Both the position numbers and the translations under genes were made by a program. The notes beneath the pieces were generated by a model. That model saw only the letters and a program-made list of their open reading frames with translations, did not search any database and had not been told where the DNA came from. A stretch of DNA of 58,842 nucleotides from Hyphomonas atlantica corrig. (lineage in GTDB: Bacteria; Pseudomonadota; Alphaproteobacteria; Caulobacterales; Hyphomonadaceae): NCBI RefSeq assembly GCF_000682715.1, contig NZ_AWFH01000010.1, positions 1-58,842 on the forward strand, read 5' to 3'. Each line of letters opens with the position of its first letter. Positions within the stretch are counted from its first letter, which is position 1. This document shows, one piece after another, positions 14,497 through 18,733 of this stretch.

Positions 14497-14919
14497 TTAG
14501 TCCCTCTTGAAACTCTTGTGCATCAGAAAAAAGACGAGCGAGGCTGAGCAGGAGATGAGCAGAAAGCCATTCAGGGATTCCAGCCCAGCTAGAAATCTCG
14601 AATGTCCCGTGGGGTAGATGTCACCAAGGCCGAGCGAAGTGTAATTGACCAGAGAAAAATAGAAGATGTCCATGAAACTATCGCTGTCGCCTCCCTTGAA
14701 TCCGCCCAGCCCAGTTGAGTCCATCACCGCAAAGCCCAATGCGTAAAGCATGGCTTCGATAAGGTGCGCAGCGCCTGCGCCGCAAATACCGGCCAGCATA
14801 GCCCAATATCCCGGCTTCAATCGCGCCGTGATTACGCCATACAGCCGGGTCAGCGCAAAATAATGGACCGTGCTTGCGAGGCAGAAAATGAGAACGCCGA
14901 TGAGAATGGACCCGGTCAT
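14497..14919 (-). CDS. Two-transmembrane ion-channel protein with an atypical filter
   Basis: The 140-residue protein fits the bacterial two-helix ion channel family (Ion_trans_2). Hydrophobic helices lie near residues 4-24, 40-66 and 106-132, and the pore loop NYTSLGLGDIYP (residues 92-103) carries the filter TSLGLGD in place of the canonical TVGYGD of potassium channels. It is therefore a channel or channel-like protein, probably potassium-permeable, but its selectivity is uncertain. The ATG at 14919 overlaps the stop of the upstream small membrane gene as ATGA; a longer frame to 15120 is an artefact that would overlap that gene entirely. No regulatory domain is attached, so gating may come from the partner protein. 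Confidence 0.72.
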   Translation of the reverse strand: MTGSILIGVLIFCLASTVHYFALTRLYGVITARLKPGYWAMLAGICGAGAAHLIEAMLYALGFAVMDSTGLGGFKGGDSDSFMDIFYFSLVNYTSLGLGDIYPTGHSRFLAGLESLNGFLLISCSASLVFFLMHKSFKRD

Positions 14920-15173
14920 GACGGATCCATGTGATCGTGGAAAGTGCTTTGATCGGAGCTTTGGTTCCGCAAGTGACGAAGGAAGAATCGTTCGAAGGCG
15001 AACACGGTTGTCATGCCTCCAATTGCGATAAGAATGATCGTTGGATCGGCCTGCCATTTCAGGATCAGAAATGCGCCAAGCGCCACTGCATCCAGCACCA
15101 AAGCTGTCACGAGGATGCACGAAAGCGGTCCGAAGAAGACCGTAAAGACGAGATTGAGGAAGTCAGCCTTCAT
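14916..15173 (-). CDS. Small two-helix membrane protein coupled to the channel
   Basis: The 86-residue protein has two hydrophobic helices (about residues 6-35 and 40-58) and a polar, histidine- and aspartate-containing tail (FHDHMDPS). I recognise no family. The ATG at 15173 has AAGGAGG eleven bases upstream, whereas a longer frame beginning at 15224 has no such signal. The stop overlaps the channel gene's start (ATGA), so the two are made together and the small protein may be a channel subunit or regulator (inference). The gene is head-to-head with the sigma-like gene: the two chosen start codons are fewer than 20 bases apart, so each promoter must lie within or very near the other's coding region. 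Confidence 0.55.
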   Translation of the reverse strand: MKADFLNLVFTVFFGPLSCILVTALVLDAVALGAFLILKWQADPTIILIAIGGMTTVFAFERFFLRHLRNQSSDQSTFHDHMDPS

Positions 15174-15191
15174 CAGGGTGACCGCCTCCTT

Positions 15192-15671
15192 GTGATTGCG
15201 AAATACTTCGCGACGCGGGCGCATCTCAGTCCTGAGGATCTCCTGCAGGAAGCACTTACAAGGGTGCTTTGTGGAGATCGCGAGAGGCCTCCGGATGTCG
15301 ACATTGTTGCCTTTCTCGGCGGTGTCATGAAGAGCATTGCAAGTTCAGAAGTGCGAAAGCGCGCCCGTCGTGAGGATGCCGGATATGCTGAAACGCCCGC
15401 CGATCTCGGCTTGTTCGCAGATACTGTGAGCGATGGTCGGGCAGGTATTGAAGACACTATCTGCCGTAAGGAGCATGACGCCGAATTTCATGCCTGGCTG
15501 TGTGAGCAATTCGAAGATGACGAAACCATGCTGGTTTTGCTGGGCATGTTTGAAGGGCTGTCGGGTGAAGAGCTTTGCTCTCAGACAGGCGTCACAAAGG
15601 GCCAGCTCGCCACCATCAGGCGAAGGATTCGCCGCAAGATAAATGAATTCGAAGGTCGGAGAGGATCATGA
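15192..15671 (+). CDS. Sigma-70-like RNA polymerase factor
   Basis: The protein (159 residues from a GTG at 15192) shows a region-2-like segment, HLSPEDLLQEALTRVL followed by DVDIVAFLGGVMKSIASSEV, and a C-terminal region-4-like helix-turn-helix, GLSGEELCSQTGVTKGQLAT, then a very basic RRRIRRKI tail. This is the layout of short ECF-like sigma factors. The start is uncertain: the frame is open to an ATG at 14931, but that extension is antisense to the small membrane gene and looks non-coding. No good ribosome-binding site precedes the GTG. The stop overlaps the next gene's ATG (ATGA), so it is coupled to the unknown protein and the ImmA/IrrE peptidase, which may control it. Confidence 0.7.
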   Translation: MIAKYFATRAHLSPEDLLQEALTRVLCGDRERPPDVDIVAFLGGVMKSIASSEVRKRARREDAGYAETPADLGLFADTVSDGRAGIEDTICRKEHDAEFHAWLCEQFEDDETMLVLLGMFEGLSGEELCSQTGVTKGQLATIRRRIRRKINEFEGRRGS

Positions 15672-16102
15672 CCGATTCTAAAAAGCGCGCCGAGCTCGAC
15701 CGTCTTGATGACGCCATGCTCGACGACATTCTCGGTATGACCAATGCGGAGATTCAGCAAGAACTGGAATCTCTGGGTCACAAGACTGGCGATGGCAAAT
15801 CCATGTTTGGCCGTGCATTAATTGCGGCGAAAGGGCATGCGGGTTTTGTTGAGCTCAAGAAGGCGCGCGTTGAACTCTTGGAGGATCGACGAAAGCGAGA
15901 GGCGCGCAGCCGGTCTCAAACGCCAGACGAGGCGCGCGCTTTCTTGCACCGGGTTCAAGCAGAACTGAGCGAACTAACGATCGCGGCAAGAAACGCGGAT
16001 GGTTCAGAGCTGTCGGACAGGGATGCATTGGCGCAGCTCGAAGATGTTTTGGAGCTGCTTGGGGAGCTTAATATAGATCTGAATGATGAAAGCAAAAAGT
16101 GA
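15668..16102 (+). CDS. Unknown protein between sigma factor and ImmA/IrrE peptidase
   Basis: This 144-residue, strongly charged and mostly helical protein has no family I recognise. Residues 1-60 contain acidic and basic patches (LDRLDDAMLDDILGMTNAEI, then GHKTGDGKSMFGRALI), and the middle (about 60-90) is a likely charged helix or coiled coil rich in Lys, Arg and Glu. There is no signal peptide or membrane segment, so it is cytoplasmic. Its start overlaps the sigma gene stop and its stop overlaps the GTG start of the peptidase gene. A soluble partner lying between a sigma factor and a regulatory peptidase could be an anti-sigma factor or the peptidase's substrate, but this is inference from gene order only. 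Confidence 0.65.
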   Translation: MTDSKKRAELDRLDDAMLDDILGMTNAEIQQELESLGHKTGDGKSMFGRALIAAKGHAGFVELKKARVELLEDRRKREARSRSQTPDEARAFLHRVQAELSELTIAARNADGSELSDRDALAQLEDVLELLGELNIDLNDESKK

Positions 16103-16908
16103 CTACCTTTCAGCGTCCTGAACTCCTTATGCAGCGCTACGGTATTGTCACGCCGGAGCAGATCGATCTGGAGGCGTTAGCGTGGTTGCTCAATGCGAGG
16201 GTCCGTTATCGCCCGCTGGATGGCTGTGAAGCGCAAATCATGGGTATCAGGGATAGGGCAATCATTACAATTGATGACCGGGGAGGCGCCGAACGTGCCC
16301 GCTTCTCGCTCGGGCATGAAATTGGACACTGGCAGTGCCACAAGAACCAGAATCTGCACTGCTCCAAAGAAGTCATCGGCTCGACCCGGGACGCTGGTTC
16401 GGCGAAGGAGTGGCAGGCTGATACTTATTCAGCTGGACTGCTTATGCCGAGATACATGTTTGAGCCTAGAGCCAAGTCTTATGATCGTCCTTCGTTTCGC
16501 TCGATCAGCGAATTAGCATCAGAGTTCCGGATAAGCCGCACAGCTACCGCGCTTCGCTTCGTCGGTACAGATCCAGTCTACTCAATCTTGATTTGCTACG
16601 GACCAAATGGCCGAAACTGGTTCCGAAAATCGAGGAACTGGCCCTCAACGTTGATCCCTGCCAGGGAGGTGGGCGCGAACTCGGACGTACTGGGTCTCCT
16701 TTTCGAGCGATGCACTGAAGCGCGCGACGCACGGCGAGAACCGGCCAGCACTTACTTCAATGGCAACGACCTTCAGGATGAGGAGGTCTTTGCCCATGCT
16801 GTGCGCACTGGAGCAAGCGATGATCCAGTTGGGCGGAGTGTCATGGTGCTGGTGGTGCCAGTCAGGAGCCGCCTGATCGAGCTCGCTGAGCGCAGAAGTG
16901 CGTGGTAA
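16099..16908 (+). CDS. ImmA/IrrE-family zinc metallopeptidase
   Basis: The 269-residue protein carries the zinc-peptidase motif HEIGH (residues 73-77, in ARFSLGHEIGHWQCH) and a downstream acidic ligand region EWQADTYSAGLLMP (from Glu104), the pattern of the ImmA/IrrE (COG2856) family. Known members cleave regulators: ImmA of ICEBs1 cuts the repressor ImmR, and IrrE/PprI of Deinococcus cuts DdrO after DNA damage. The C-terminal part (about 150-269) has no recognised domain and may be a sensor. It starts with GTG at 16099, overlapping the upstream stop, as the third gene of the sigma-unknown-peptidase operon. The natural inference is stress-triggered cleavage of one of the two partner proteins. 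Its stop (16908) directly meets the convergent gene ending at 16910. Confidence 0.85.
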   Translation: MTTFQRPELLMQRYGIVTPEQIDLEALAWLLNARVRYRPLDGCEAQIMGIRDRAIITIDDRGGAERARFSLGHEIGHWQCHKNQNLHCSKEVIGSTRDAGSAKEWQADTYSAGLLMPRYMFEPRAKSYDRPSFRSISELASEFRISRTATALRFVGTDPVYSILICYGPNGRNWFRKSRNWPSTLIPAREVGANSDVLGLLFERCTEARDARREPASTYFNGNDLQDEEVFAHAVRTGASDDPVGRSVMVLVVPVRSRLIELAERRSAW

Positions 16909-16909
16909 A

Positions 16910-17455
16910 CTAGGATGCTTTGCCGAGTGGCAGAGTACCTTGGCCATCCGGGTAGGCTCTGCGCGATTTTGAATTTGGTTTCGACGCAGGACGATCGCTC
17001 AATAGAGGTTTGAGGTCCTGAGGCGCCTTGAGATGAACAAAGCCCTTGGAAGGAGCGTAGTACAGCGCGACTTTTTTTCCAGCTTCCAGCAGGGTTTCGG
17101 CATTCGAAATCGATCCTTTCGATTCGCCGTCCCATAAGATGAAGCCATACTCTGCTGCCTCCGCCATGGCCTTGTCCTTGACCGTATAGAACGCTCTGCC
17201 TTTCAATTTTGGGTCAACGTCAACCGCTTCTACCGGCCAAGAGCCAATATTGTTCCGGCATTTGCCGGCCGAGCAAAAGACAGTGACAAACAAGTAGTGC
17301 TGGTCGGCCAAGTATGATTGCATGGCTTTGTCAGCGCCATTGGCATCACCGACCACGATCTTCAATTCCTTGCGCATCATATTCTGCAGACGCTCTCGAA
17401 TCTGGTCGTTGAGACGACTTATGTTTCGAGATCCCGAAAGGAACACCGTGCTCAT
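16910..17455 (-). CDS. SLOG-like Rossmann-fold nucleotide-binding protein
   Basis: The 181-residue protein starts MSTVFLSGSRNIS and continues with KIVVGDANGADKAMQSYLA, a Rossmann-like pattern (SGSR turn, then VVGDAxGAD) typical of the YspA/YpsA-like branch of the SLOG superfamily. Later segments GFILWDGESKGSISN and KKVALYY fit the same fold. The last 40 residues are basic and low in complexity. SLOG domains bind or process nucleotides and occur in many nucleotide-based conflict and signalling systems; the precise activity here is unknown. The ATG at 17455 overlaps the stop of the phosphoribosyltransferase gene (ATGA), so the two are coupled. The gene is convergent with the ImmA/IrrE peptidase gene. 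Confidence 0.68.
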   Translation of the reverse strand: MSTVFLSGSRNISRLNDQIRERLQNMMRKELKIVVGDANGADKAMQSYLADQHYLFVTVFCSAGKCRNNIGSWPVEAVDVDPKLKGRAFYTVKDKAMAEAAEYGFILWDGESKGSISNAETLLEAGKKVALYYAPSKGFVHLKAPQDLKPLLSDRPASKPNSKSRRAYPDGQGTLPLGKAS

Positions 17456-18045
17456 CGATTGCTTCGCGTTTTTGTCATCGTCAAAACACATACGCGTGCT
17501 GCGCCTCCTTCGGTAAGCAGTATATCAGTCGCCACGTTCAACGTCGAACCTGACCGGAAGAGATCATCAACGAGTAAAATTTGCTTTCCTTTCACTCTCT
17601 CTCCTTTGTGAAGAGATAGAGCTTTCCGAAGTAGGTCCAACCGAGCGACCGGATCAGTTATTCCTTTGAGCTCCTCATCACCGGAATTTAAGAGCAGATC
17701 GTCAAGAACGCTCACTTTTCTCCTTTTTCCAATTTCGGCAGTTATCAGCTGGACCGGCTGATAGGCGCGCTTCTTGTTTGTTGCAGGTATCGGAACCAGG
17801 GCGTCGAATCCCTCTATTCCCTTTATCTGATCAAGCAATTCCACAATTCTCGCAACAGCCCCCCGATTCTGGGCGTATTTCAGTTCATATACAAGCTGCC
17901 CCATTTCACTCCGCTTTGTGTCGTAGCGGTCTCGCCCTCCCGCATCCACGCCGAGATACTCGCTGGAAACAGTATGGATATCGAATGCCTTGCCGACCGC
18001 CCAATTACCTTCAATGCTTTCTACCATCGGGAAGGAATCCCCCAC
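17452..18045 (-). CDS. ComF-like phosphoribosyltransferase
   Basis: The 197-residue protein has the type I phosphoribosyltransferase PRPP loop ILLVDDLFRSGSTL near residues 158-171. Earlier segments, MGQLVYELKYAQNRGAV and DALVPIPATNKKRAYQPVQ, match ComF-type proteins, but the zinc-finger N-terminus of ComF is absent. The substrate is unknown. The longest start is a GTG at 18045; an ATG at 18027 with GGGGGA twelve bases upstream is an alternative that would remove six residues. It is coupled to the SLOG-like gene by an ATGA overlap; a phosphoribosyltransferase beside a SLOG nucleotide-binding protein suggests production or salvage of a nucleotide-type molecule. This stretch is visibly richer in A+T than the flanking operons, hinting at acquisition from elsewhere. 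Confidence 0.7.
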   Translation of the reverse strand: MGDSFPMVESIEGNWAVGKAFDIHTVSSEYLGVDAGGRDRYDTKRSEMGQLVYELKYAQNRGAVARIVELLDQIKGIEGFDALVPIPATNKKRAYQPVQLITAEIGKRRKVSVLDDLLLNSGDEELKGITDPVARLDLLRKALSLHKGERVKGKQILLVDDLFRSGSTLNVATDILLTEGGAARVCVLTMTKTRSNR

Positions 18046-18220
18046 TTCTATGTTGGTCGGCGACCTTAGGCTGACTCGGCAGAGCTTGTCTTTAAGTGTC
18101 GCCGAAGCGAAACTCGAACGAACATGCGTTATTACTGCCGTAGAACGCAGTTGGCCAATTCGCCCGACGTCTTCGAAAGTTTTAATGCCTTGTAATAAAA
18201 GGAATTACTAGCTTACTCTT

Positions 18221-18250
18221 TTGTTGGGTGCGCCCTCCCGCACCCAACAA
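18221..18250. repeat. Perfect 12-bp inverted repeat at the island edge
   Basis: TTGTTGGGTGCG (18221-18232) and CGCACCCAACAA (18239-18250) form a perfect 12-bp stem with a 6-base loop (CCCTCC). It lies in the 253-base gap between the phosphoribosyltransferase start and the thioesterase stop. The rest of that gap, 18046-18220, presumably holds the phosphoribosyltransferase promoter; I see no gene there. Confidence 0.75.
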
Positions 18251-18284
18251 GCCCCTGATATCCTCGCGGATTTCGGGGGCTTTT
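18249..18284 (+). terminator. Terminator-like hairpin followed by TTTT on the plus strand
   Basis: AAGCCCC (18249-18255) pairs with GGGGCTT (18276-18282), with further imperfect pairing of GATATCC and GGATTTC inside, and the plus strand continues TTTTCC. The U-run is on the plus strand although both flanking genes are on the minus strand, so it either ends an unseen plus-strand transcript from 18046-18248 or works loosely in both directions for the leftward thioesterase gene that stops at 18299. Confidence 0.55.
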
Positions 18285-18298
18285 CCTTTGGTGCCTGT

Positions 18299-18733
18299 TC
18301 AGGCGCGTTTGGCCGGGATGACCGCTACGGTAAATCGCGAAATACAGACCAGTCGACCGTCCTCATCCACGATGCGGATAGACCAGATCTGAGTTGTTCG
18401 GCCCAGCGCCTCTGGGGTTGCCTTCGCATACACGTATCCGCTCATGACCGGGCGGATATGGTTGGCATTGATTTCAAGACCGACACCGACCTGTTCACTG
18501 GAATCAAGCGTGAGGTTGGACGCAATAGAGCCAACGGTTTCTGCCAGGGCCACTGACGCGCCACCATGCAGGCGGCCGTGAGGCTGAACCGTGCGGCCAT
18601 CGACAGGCATCCTGGCAGTCAGCGAATTTTCTGTTGCGTCAATGACTTCAATCCCGAGGTGTTCAACCAGGGTAGGTGACTCGTAATGTGTGAGGGCTTG
18701 CGGTTGCGGGACCCCATTCTTCCAGATCGACAT
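18299..18733 (-). CDS. PaaI/YdiI-type hotdog thioesterase
   Basis: The 144-residue protein is a single hotdog domain with the motif HGRLHGGASVALAETVGS; Glu65 and the His56-Gly-Gly turn match the active site of the PaaI/YdiI acyl-CoA thioesterase family. It would hydrolyse a medium-chain or aromatic acyl-CoA. GGAG lies about ten bases before the ATG at 18733. The frame is open far upstream (to 19234), but that part is antisense-like shadow over the SDR gene. It is the last of three same-strand genes, 104 bases after the SDR gene stop, and probably clears CoA esters from the monooxygenase/SDR pathway (inference). Confidence 0.85.
   Translation of the reverse strand: MSIWKNGVPQPQALTHYESPTLVEHLGIEVIDATENSLTARMPVDGRTVQPHGRLHGGASVALAETVGSIASNLTLDSSEQVGVGLEINANHIRPVMSGYVYAKATPEALGRTTQIWSIRIVDEDGRLVCISRFTVAVIPAKRA

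Follow-up and report, generated by a model that had tools for sequence, protein, structure and literature searches.

Why should the gene of a sigma factor overlap, stop to start, with that of a protein of unknown family and this in turn with the gene of an ImmA/IrrE peptidase? The question is raised by three plus strand genes at positions 15116-16908 of the DNA analyzed here, positions 1 to 58,842 of contig NZ_AWFH01000010.1 from Hyphomonas atlantica (this whole stretch is called the window in the following). They encode an extracytoplasmic function (ECF)-like sigma factor, a protein of 144 amino acids denominated X and a peptidase of the CapP type. In many relatives the same sigma-X-CapP cassette lies beside operons of the cyclic oligonucleotide-based antiphage signalling system (CBASS) or beside ubiquitin-like operons, behind paired promoter-like sites, and we consider it fairly probable that it switches these operons on through the cleavage of X by CapP, while the copy in the window is a truncated one. 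A preliminary description of this DNA had suggested a coupled triad with a sigma factor that is released or destroyed by regulated proteolysis. The CapP type of the peptidase, the neighboring immune operons in relatives, the paired divergent promoter-like sites and their loss in the window are features beyond that description.

Conservation and distribution of the cassette

The claimed coupling of the three open reading frames (ORFs) is confirmed by two overlaps of four nucleotides (nt), namely ATGA between sigma and X (15668-15671) and GTGA between X and CapP (16099-16102). Named genomes were scanned with the CapP alignment, and among the best 80 of 307 confirmed loci, which constitute the main locus set, 75 contain sigma, X and CapP in the same order. 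The misses comprise two loci at contig ends (L012 and L038, the latter retaining X), one with the tail of X only (L015) and two with CapP alone (L032, L062); gene fusions were not seen in any of the 80 loci. A start codon is found at the four-nucleotide overlap in 58 of 70 measured loci for sigma/X and in 47 of 70 for X/CapP, with a mild bias in these counts as the start nearest to the overlap was chosen. The hosts are Alpha-, Beta- and Gammaproteobacteria, Thermodesulfobacteriota and one metagenome-assembled genome labelled Acidobacteriaceae.

The cassette is uncommon. In a phylum draw of 398 genomes capP was matched in 80, and of 30 loci examined (three matches stronger than 1e-33 lie outside these 30) only the window's own locus and L199 were sigma-linked. 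The latter, from genome G103, is a relic with a 5'-truncated sigma-type CapP. Within the genus the cassette was detected in two of 40 other genomes (G062 and G063). The peptidase has relatives in 33 plasmid records, including 14 predicted to be conjugative, and no CapP relative was found in phage records at E 1e-5. Two of 48 viral-contig loci were examined, and each gave matches to the sigma, X and CapP profiles; in L082 the contig begins within the sigma gene, and in L083 this gene is short.

Divergent immune operons and paired promoter-like sites

The genes upstream of sigma on the opposite strand give the first answer to what the cassette may control. Among the 25 of 53 families listed for the 143 nearest minus-strand ORFs (74 loci) are ThiF (29), Multi_ubiq (15), Prok-JAB (13), DUF6791 (8), Prok-E2_E (6), DncV-like NTFase (6), SMODS (5), Prok-E2_A (5), DUF6527 (5) and Patatin (4), and as many as 27 of these ORFs are hit by PADLOC E1-E2 models. 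On the downstream flank, where the scan took in 121 of 148 ORFs, the E1-E2 models are absent among the 25 of 244 families listed, and restriction-modification models lead with up to five matches each. Hidden Markov models (HMMs) of neighbor clusters place E1-JAB, cGAS/DncV-like nucleotidyltransferase (CD-NTase) or metallo-beta-lactamase (MBL)-E1/E2 genes no more than 4.5 kb away on the divergent flank in 42 of the 80 loci, a union compiled by hand, and downstream they find no E1-JAB, one CD-NTase and one HNH/SAVED-type gene. Since the 16 clusters behind these models were picked after being seen upstream, the ORF family scans of both flanks are the fairer control. Checks of single members gave E2_A together with ThiF for L053 and SAVED for L035, and the MBL label is based on a match to Lactamase_B below the threshold (E 0.001).

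Plasmids provide examples. On plasmid pDE of the laboratory strain Cereibacter sphaeroides 2.4.1 the complete triad with its promoter pair lies next to nucleotidyltransferase and SAVED genes (CBASS-type), a plasmid record of Pseudosulfitobacter pseudonitzschiae has multiubiquitin and ThiF beside the cassette, and in the p1 plasmid record of Paracoccus sp. multiubiquitin, ThiF and DUF6527 are its neighbors. Operons of multiubiquitin, E2, ThiF-JAB and DUF6527 genes are here called Bub-type, which we take to be the gene content behind this name.

The intergenic regions upstream of sigma show CGGACA...TGTCCG arms, each followed by a -10-like element at fixed distance. For their analysis 68 of the 80 loci were used, leaving aside five without sigma, five that are near-copies or have a truncated sigma (L014, L046, L066, L067, L078) and two with a short sigma ORF (L044, L055). 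Strict arms are present in 45 of the 68 regions, compared to 0.2 expected from mononucleotide shuffles. The weight matrix derived from these regions (-35 TGTCCGA, spacer 14-15, -10 SMGCMTW) detects a site on both strands in 60 of 68 regions versus 2 of 198 random segments, and on either strand in 65 of 68 versus 30 of 198. A back-to-back pair is found in 59 of the 68 sigma upstream regions; random segments drawn from these loci contain one in 9 of 2710 cases, and none of 28 other CapP loci has it. Among eight loci outside the matrix training six have the pair, namely G062 and G063, which are close kin, and L130-L133, of which L131 shares its species with L006; the pair is missing in L082 and L083.

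Both halves of the pair co-vary. In 46 loci with less than 60% sigma identity the match between left and right -10 elements within a locus amounts to 6.54 of 8 (4.65 +/- 0.18 when permuted) and that between the -35 elements to 6.37 of 7 (5.81 +/- 0.07 when permuted), and in both cases 0 of 5000 permutations were as high.

Past the twin sites the divergent operon often starts with a small gene. Such first genes are DUF3892-like (cluster 7) in L018, L025 and L057, DUF2188-like (cluster 29) in L007 and L059, or belong to cluster 14 (about 100 amino acids) in L016, L035 and L049, with no Pfam match for the member of L016; the DUF labels per locus come from cluster membership and reading. In L007, L018, L025 and L057 no known immune gene was identified behind the small first gene, and the divergent operons of these four loci are candidates for new immune operons. 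One further gene cluster is found near the cassettes of L006, L011, L043, L067 and L081, and in L131, a relative of L006, it is annotated as "anti-phage dCTP deaminase".

Proteins of the cassette

The third gene (16099-16908, plus strand, GTG start, 269 amino acids) encodes an ImmA/IrrE (M78) peptidase as had been proposed (Peptidase_M78, E 1e-13), and PADLOC capP is by far its top PADLOC match (E 8e-47). Its structure model (predicted local distance difference test, pLDDT, 89.6) has Thauera CapP (7T5T) as top Foldseek match (E 1.2e-12, template modelling score 0.67/0.65, 269 columns) and shares with it the full-length CapP fold consisting of peptidase, helix-turn-helix (HTH) and GAF-like part. 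The next fold match is Deinococcus PprI with single-stranded DNA (ssDNA; 8sln, E 1.1e-8). The residues H73, E74 and H77 of the HEXXH zinc motif (16315-16329, plus strand) as well as C88 (16360-16362, plus strand) are kept in 80 of 81 rows, the remaining row being gapped, and the downstream glutamate E104 in 79 of 81. A cysteine after HEXXH acts as a switch according to PMC13273310, and C88, which is located 15 residues past the first HEXXH histidine and aligned with a cysteine of 7T5T, is the candidate for this role.

A CapH profile (A7), built from 13 of 28 other CapP loci, finds nothing adjoining CapP in the window's own locus (L205) or in any of the 80 sigma-type loci, where it gives only two distant matches. 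In 25 of the 28 other CapP loci, counted at any distance within loci of 2.5-3.8 kb, a CapH-like HTH frame is present at E 1e-3 or better (the misses are L196, L208 and L209). Additionally, in the phylogenetic tree 42 sigma-linked CapPs and the relic L199 are split from 28 other CapP relatives by a branch of length 1.16 with 100/100 support.

The first gene, described before as sigma-like, has ECF-like profile support. The window protein matches TIGR02937 (sigma70-ECF) with E 7e-10 and 38.8 bits, which is under the cut-off of 42.9 bits, and Sigma70_r2 with E 0.0038. The profile of the sigma family (A6) matches ECF SigH (5zx2, E 2.9e-9) and sigma-E (1or7, E 7e-4) and covers sigma regions 2 and 4.

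Protein X (15668-16102, plus strand) could not be matched to a family: there is nothing above cut-off in Pfam and NCBIfam, no match in PADLOC and a weak DUF1127 match (E 0.006). As a homology search by sequence alone yielded just two proteins, of which one is the X of the window itself or almost identical to it, relatives were collected by their position between sigma and CapP. In the resulting 67 aligned rows (mean column identity 35%) the invariant residues besides M1 are A106 and R108 (67 of 67), whereas A107 is kept in 64 and T104 in 57 rows. This (T)xAAR motif, TIAAR in the window (residues 104-108, 15977-15991, plus strand), is located near a predicted loop. The structure model (pLDDT 85.5, predicted template modelling score 0.48) shows six helices and has no match among PDB folds (best E 2.6); with the X profile, ankyrin repeats of the PDB are weakly matched (E 0.006, no passing stretch).

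The truncated copy of Hyphomonas atlantica

In G062 and G063 from the same genus the cassette has a full-length sigma gene and twin sites together with Multi_ubiq/Prok-E2_E, ThiF (its JAB part below cut-off) and DUF6527 genes. The window is homologous to both at the DNA level (84%) only from 15116 on, and also the homology of its sigma factor to protein P0051 and to the sigma factors of G062 and G063 starts at about 15116. This means that the sigma gene of the window (15116-15671, plus strand) is 5'-truncated, with the native start codon and about five codons absent. The earlier assumption of 15192 as natural sigma start does not hold as coding homology reaches to about 15116; possible starts in the window are GTG at 15192 (159 amino acids) or in-frame GTG/TTG codons upstream at 14931-14973. 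Left of the junction there is a gene pair for a membrane protein with two transmembrane segments (2TM) and an ion channel (14497-15224, minus strand), which is also present in five other genomes of the genus (L154-L158), and no homologue of the 2TM protein from the genus can be aligned to the right of 15131. Since homology to G062/G063 starts at 15116 and that of the 2TM protein stops at 15131, a deletion or rearrangement has fused sigma, from about codon 6 on, with the 5' end of the 2TM gene in head-to-head orientation (junction 15108-15131). An assembly error is unlikely because the long-frame sigma protein (P0050) was clustered from three contigs, the longest of 152,507 bases and hence not the one analyzed here.

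Besides the native sigma start also the promoter pair (searched in the whole 58.8-kb window) and the Bub-type operon are absent, and neither a CBASS nor a Bub-type operon adjoins the window locus. Elsewhere in this genome one E1-like match of 34% in the ThiF region was found and no further Bub-type E1. Therefore, without recognizable own promoter and without target operon, the window cassette probably represents a relic whose activity, if any, would depend on outside promoters.

A triad still active in the window and controlling other genes, for instance from such an outside promoter, appears unlikely to us. Its three frames are open, the long-frame sigma occurs on another contig, too, and the ratio of nonsynonymous to synonymous substitutions (dN/dS) of the three genes versus their kin is 0.07-0.16 with a CapP dS near 1 (0.11-0.30 for G062 versus G063). 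However, dN/dS spans the whole divergence, so that low values may predate the deletion and are no proof of present activity, and the lost sigma start, the missing promoter pair and a single 34% ThiF-region match in place of a Bub-type E1 argue against an active cassette.

Convergent to the cassette there is a gene pair at 16910-18045 (minus strand), one encoding a SLOG/DprA-like protein by a weak match (E 0.03) and the other a phosphoribosyltransferase, and the last stop of this pair is 1 nt from the CapP stop. The phosphoribosyltransferase matches PADLOC PsyrT (E 3e-12) and ShosT (E 5e-7), and the pair presumably resembles toxin-antitoxin defence of the PsyrTA/ShosTA type. As target of the window cassette it was rejected, with no promoter-like site above 7 bits in 17900-18400.

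Proposed mechanism and alternative explanations

Immune operons able to kill their host must stay silent until they are needed. In the proposed mechanism X, which is likely an anti-sigma factor, would hold the sigma factor inactive. Single-stranded DNA arising from phage attack or DNA damage would activate CapP as in CapH-CapP and PprI-DdrO, and the activated peptidase would cleave X, perhaps at the TxAAR segment. The freed sigma factor would then read both divergent sites and raise the expression of its own operon and of the immune operon in a positive-feedback loop. VapB52 cleaves itself with an "FR" motif as probable site (PMC13273310), and an arginine in the cleavage loop of DdrO matters for cleavage by PprI (PMC10904395). 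From these precedents the arginine motif of X may be a cut or docking site, which is a reasonable guess and no more.

We lean towards a whole class of immune controllers with a peptidase that senses DNA damage and then releases its dedicated sigma factor, which would make an all-or-none positive-feedback switch for CBASS, ubiquitin-like and further undescribed operons. A controller of this kind would be self-amplifying and would make it understandable that unrelated operons are served by a single kind of regulator. It would also assign a likely role to the unannotated X family, and the twin promoter would be a signpost that may point to unrecognized defence operons.

Several results speak against this mechanism. 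In 38 of 80 loci no known immune gene was identified on the divergent side, and 9 of 68 regions are without the promoter pair at the threshold. When mutual information was used to look for sigma residues linked to the -10 variant, none stood out, and the top CapP column scored higher. A looser promoter pattern applied in reverse to 385 genomes gave 11 sites, none with a cassette in loci of 1.8-3.1 kb, and its reversed-pattern control gave even more (21 sites by our count). Domain, profile and fold searches with X detected no similarity to known anti-sigma factors, and a derivation of X from CapH was rejected (hhalign probability 0.2%, no profile similarity). Finally, the co-occurrence expected in the preliminary description is obtained when the search is anchored in CapP but not when it is anchored in sigma: in 398 genomes there were four matches other than the window's own, none of them with CapP within the 12 kb examined. 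The sigma family is therefore wider than the cassette.

Among these four matches L165 (G098) is a relic with sigma and a piece of X beside it, without CapP and amid ORFs judged by eye as transposase-like. L166, L167 and L168 are sigma-family relatives without X or CapP in the same 12 kb, and to judge from these sequences the family has other uses besides the cassette.

Instead of X, CapP could cleave the sigma factor itself, either directly or with X as adaptor, and proteolysis would then turn the immune operon off. Both proteins are encoded together, and with AntA and ClpXP a case is known in which proteolysis controls an ECF sigma factor and no anti-sigma factor takes part (PMC8999054). Nevertheless, we regard this as rather improbable, since X is as constant as the other two genes (75 of 80 loci) and has a short invariant motif, and CapP and PprI are described to cut a repressor, by which their targets are turned on (PMC13373217, PMC10904395). 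From what the sequences suggest, a proteolysis-driven sigma switch, as already envisaged in the preliminary description, is the best reading and partly supported. Of its two variants "released" is likelier than "destroyed" because the characterized CapP/PprI peptidases cut a negative regulator.

A second alternative concerns the paired sites. The inverted TGTCCG arms might represent the operator of a repressor such as X, with the sigma factor acting elsewhere. They are palindromic indeed, the related controller CapS uses palindromes (PMC13373217), and the X profile matches the HTH regulators SkgA and CtsR of the PDB weakly and non-significantly (E about 0.05). Yet X has no match to a DNA-binding family above cut-off, and the two -35 arms lie 6 to 49 nt apart, whereas the spacer between an arm and its own -10-like element is held at 14-15 nt, the same on both sides in 49 of 57 cases. 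Fixed spacers at variable arm distance fit one sigma factor that reads two divergent promoters and not one operator. Together with the co-variation of both elements this makes an operator improbable.

That the triad is a mobile unit without regulatory tie to its neighbors, its proximity to defence genes reflecting defence-island clustering, would agree with the plasmid records and with the restriction-modification matches on the other flank, yet it is the least credible explanation as clustering predicts neither the one-sided, divergent arrangement of ubiquitin-like and CD-NTase genes nor the paired promoter-like region that they share with sigma.

Relation to known systems

The triad had not been recognized as a described system, and no account of a sigma-linked CapP was found among the papers listed in searches of the Creative Commons-licensed full text of PubMed Central. 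A review of non-canonical ECF factors does not contain the word IrrE, and where it deals with soluble anti-sigma factors no M78 peptidase is mentioned (PMC8999054).

The closest relative is CapH-CapP, with which the cassette shares the CapP-type peptidase with HEXXH and switch cysteine and the position beside CBASS or ubiquitin-like immune operons (PMC13373217). In contrast with the HTH repressor CapH, there is a sigma factor together with the unrelated X in its place here, and the sigma-linked CapPs branch apart. As sigma and X replace a repressor, control would be activation and not de-repression. The same source gives 544 Bub operons, 219 of them with a link to CapW or to CapH plus CapP, and some sigma-linked cases could be included in these 219.

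CapH-CapP, CapW/BrxR and CapK-CapS are DNA-damage controllers that act through DNA-binding repressors (PMC13373217). CapK-CapS is similar as a DNA-damage-responsive controller beside Bub operons but consists of a kinase and a repressor with STAS and winged HTH domains instead of peptidase and sigma factor. PprI(IrrE)-DdrO of Deinococcus has an M78 peptidase of similar fold, which is stimulated by ssDNA and cuts its regulator at a loop with an important arginine (PMC10904395). DdrO is, however, a DNA-binding repressor and no sigma factor is involved.

The Csx29-Csx30-CASP-sigma system of type III-E CRISPR shares the cleavage of an ECF sigma inhibitor by a defence protease: Csx29 cuts the sigma inhibitor Csx30, and sigma-binding motifs are found in the own locus at cas1 and two other genes (PMC10028731). 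There the protease is of the TPR-CHAT type and triggered by target RNA, whereas the cassette described here has an M78/CapP-type peptidase, and ssDNA as trigger and CBASS or Bub-type operons as targets are proposed for it. The sigma-X-CapP cassette can thus be considered as a variant of the CapH-CapP kind that follows the Csx30/sigma logic of type III-E.

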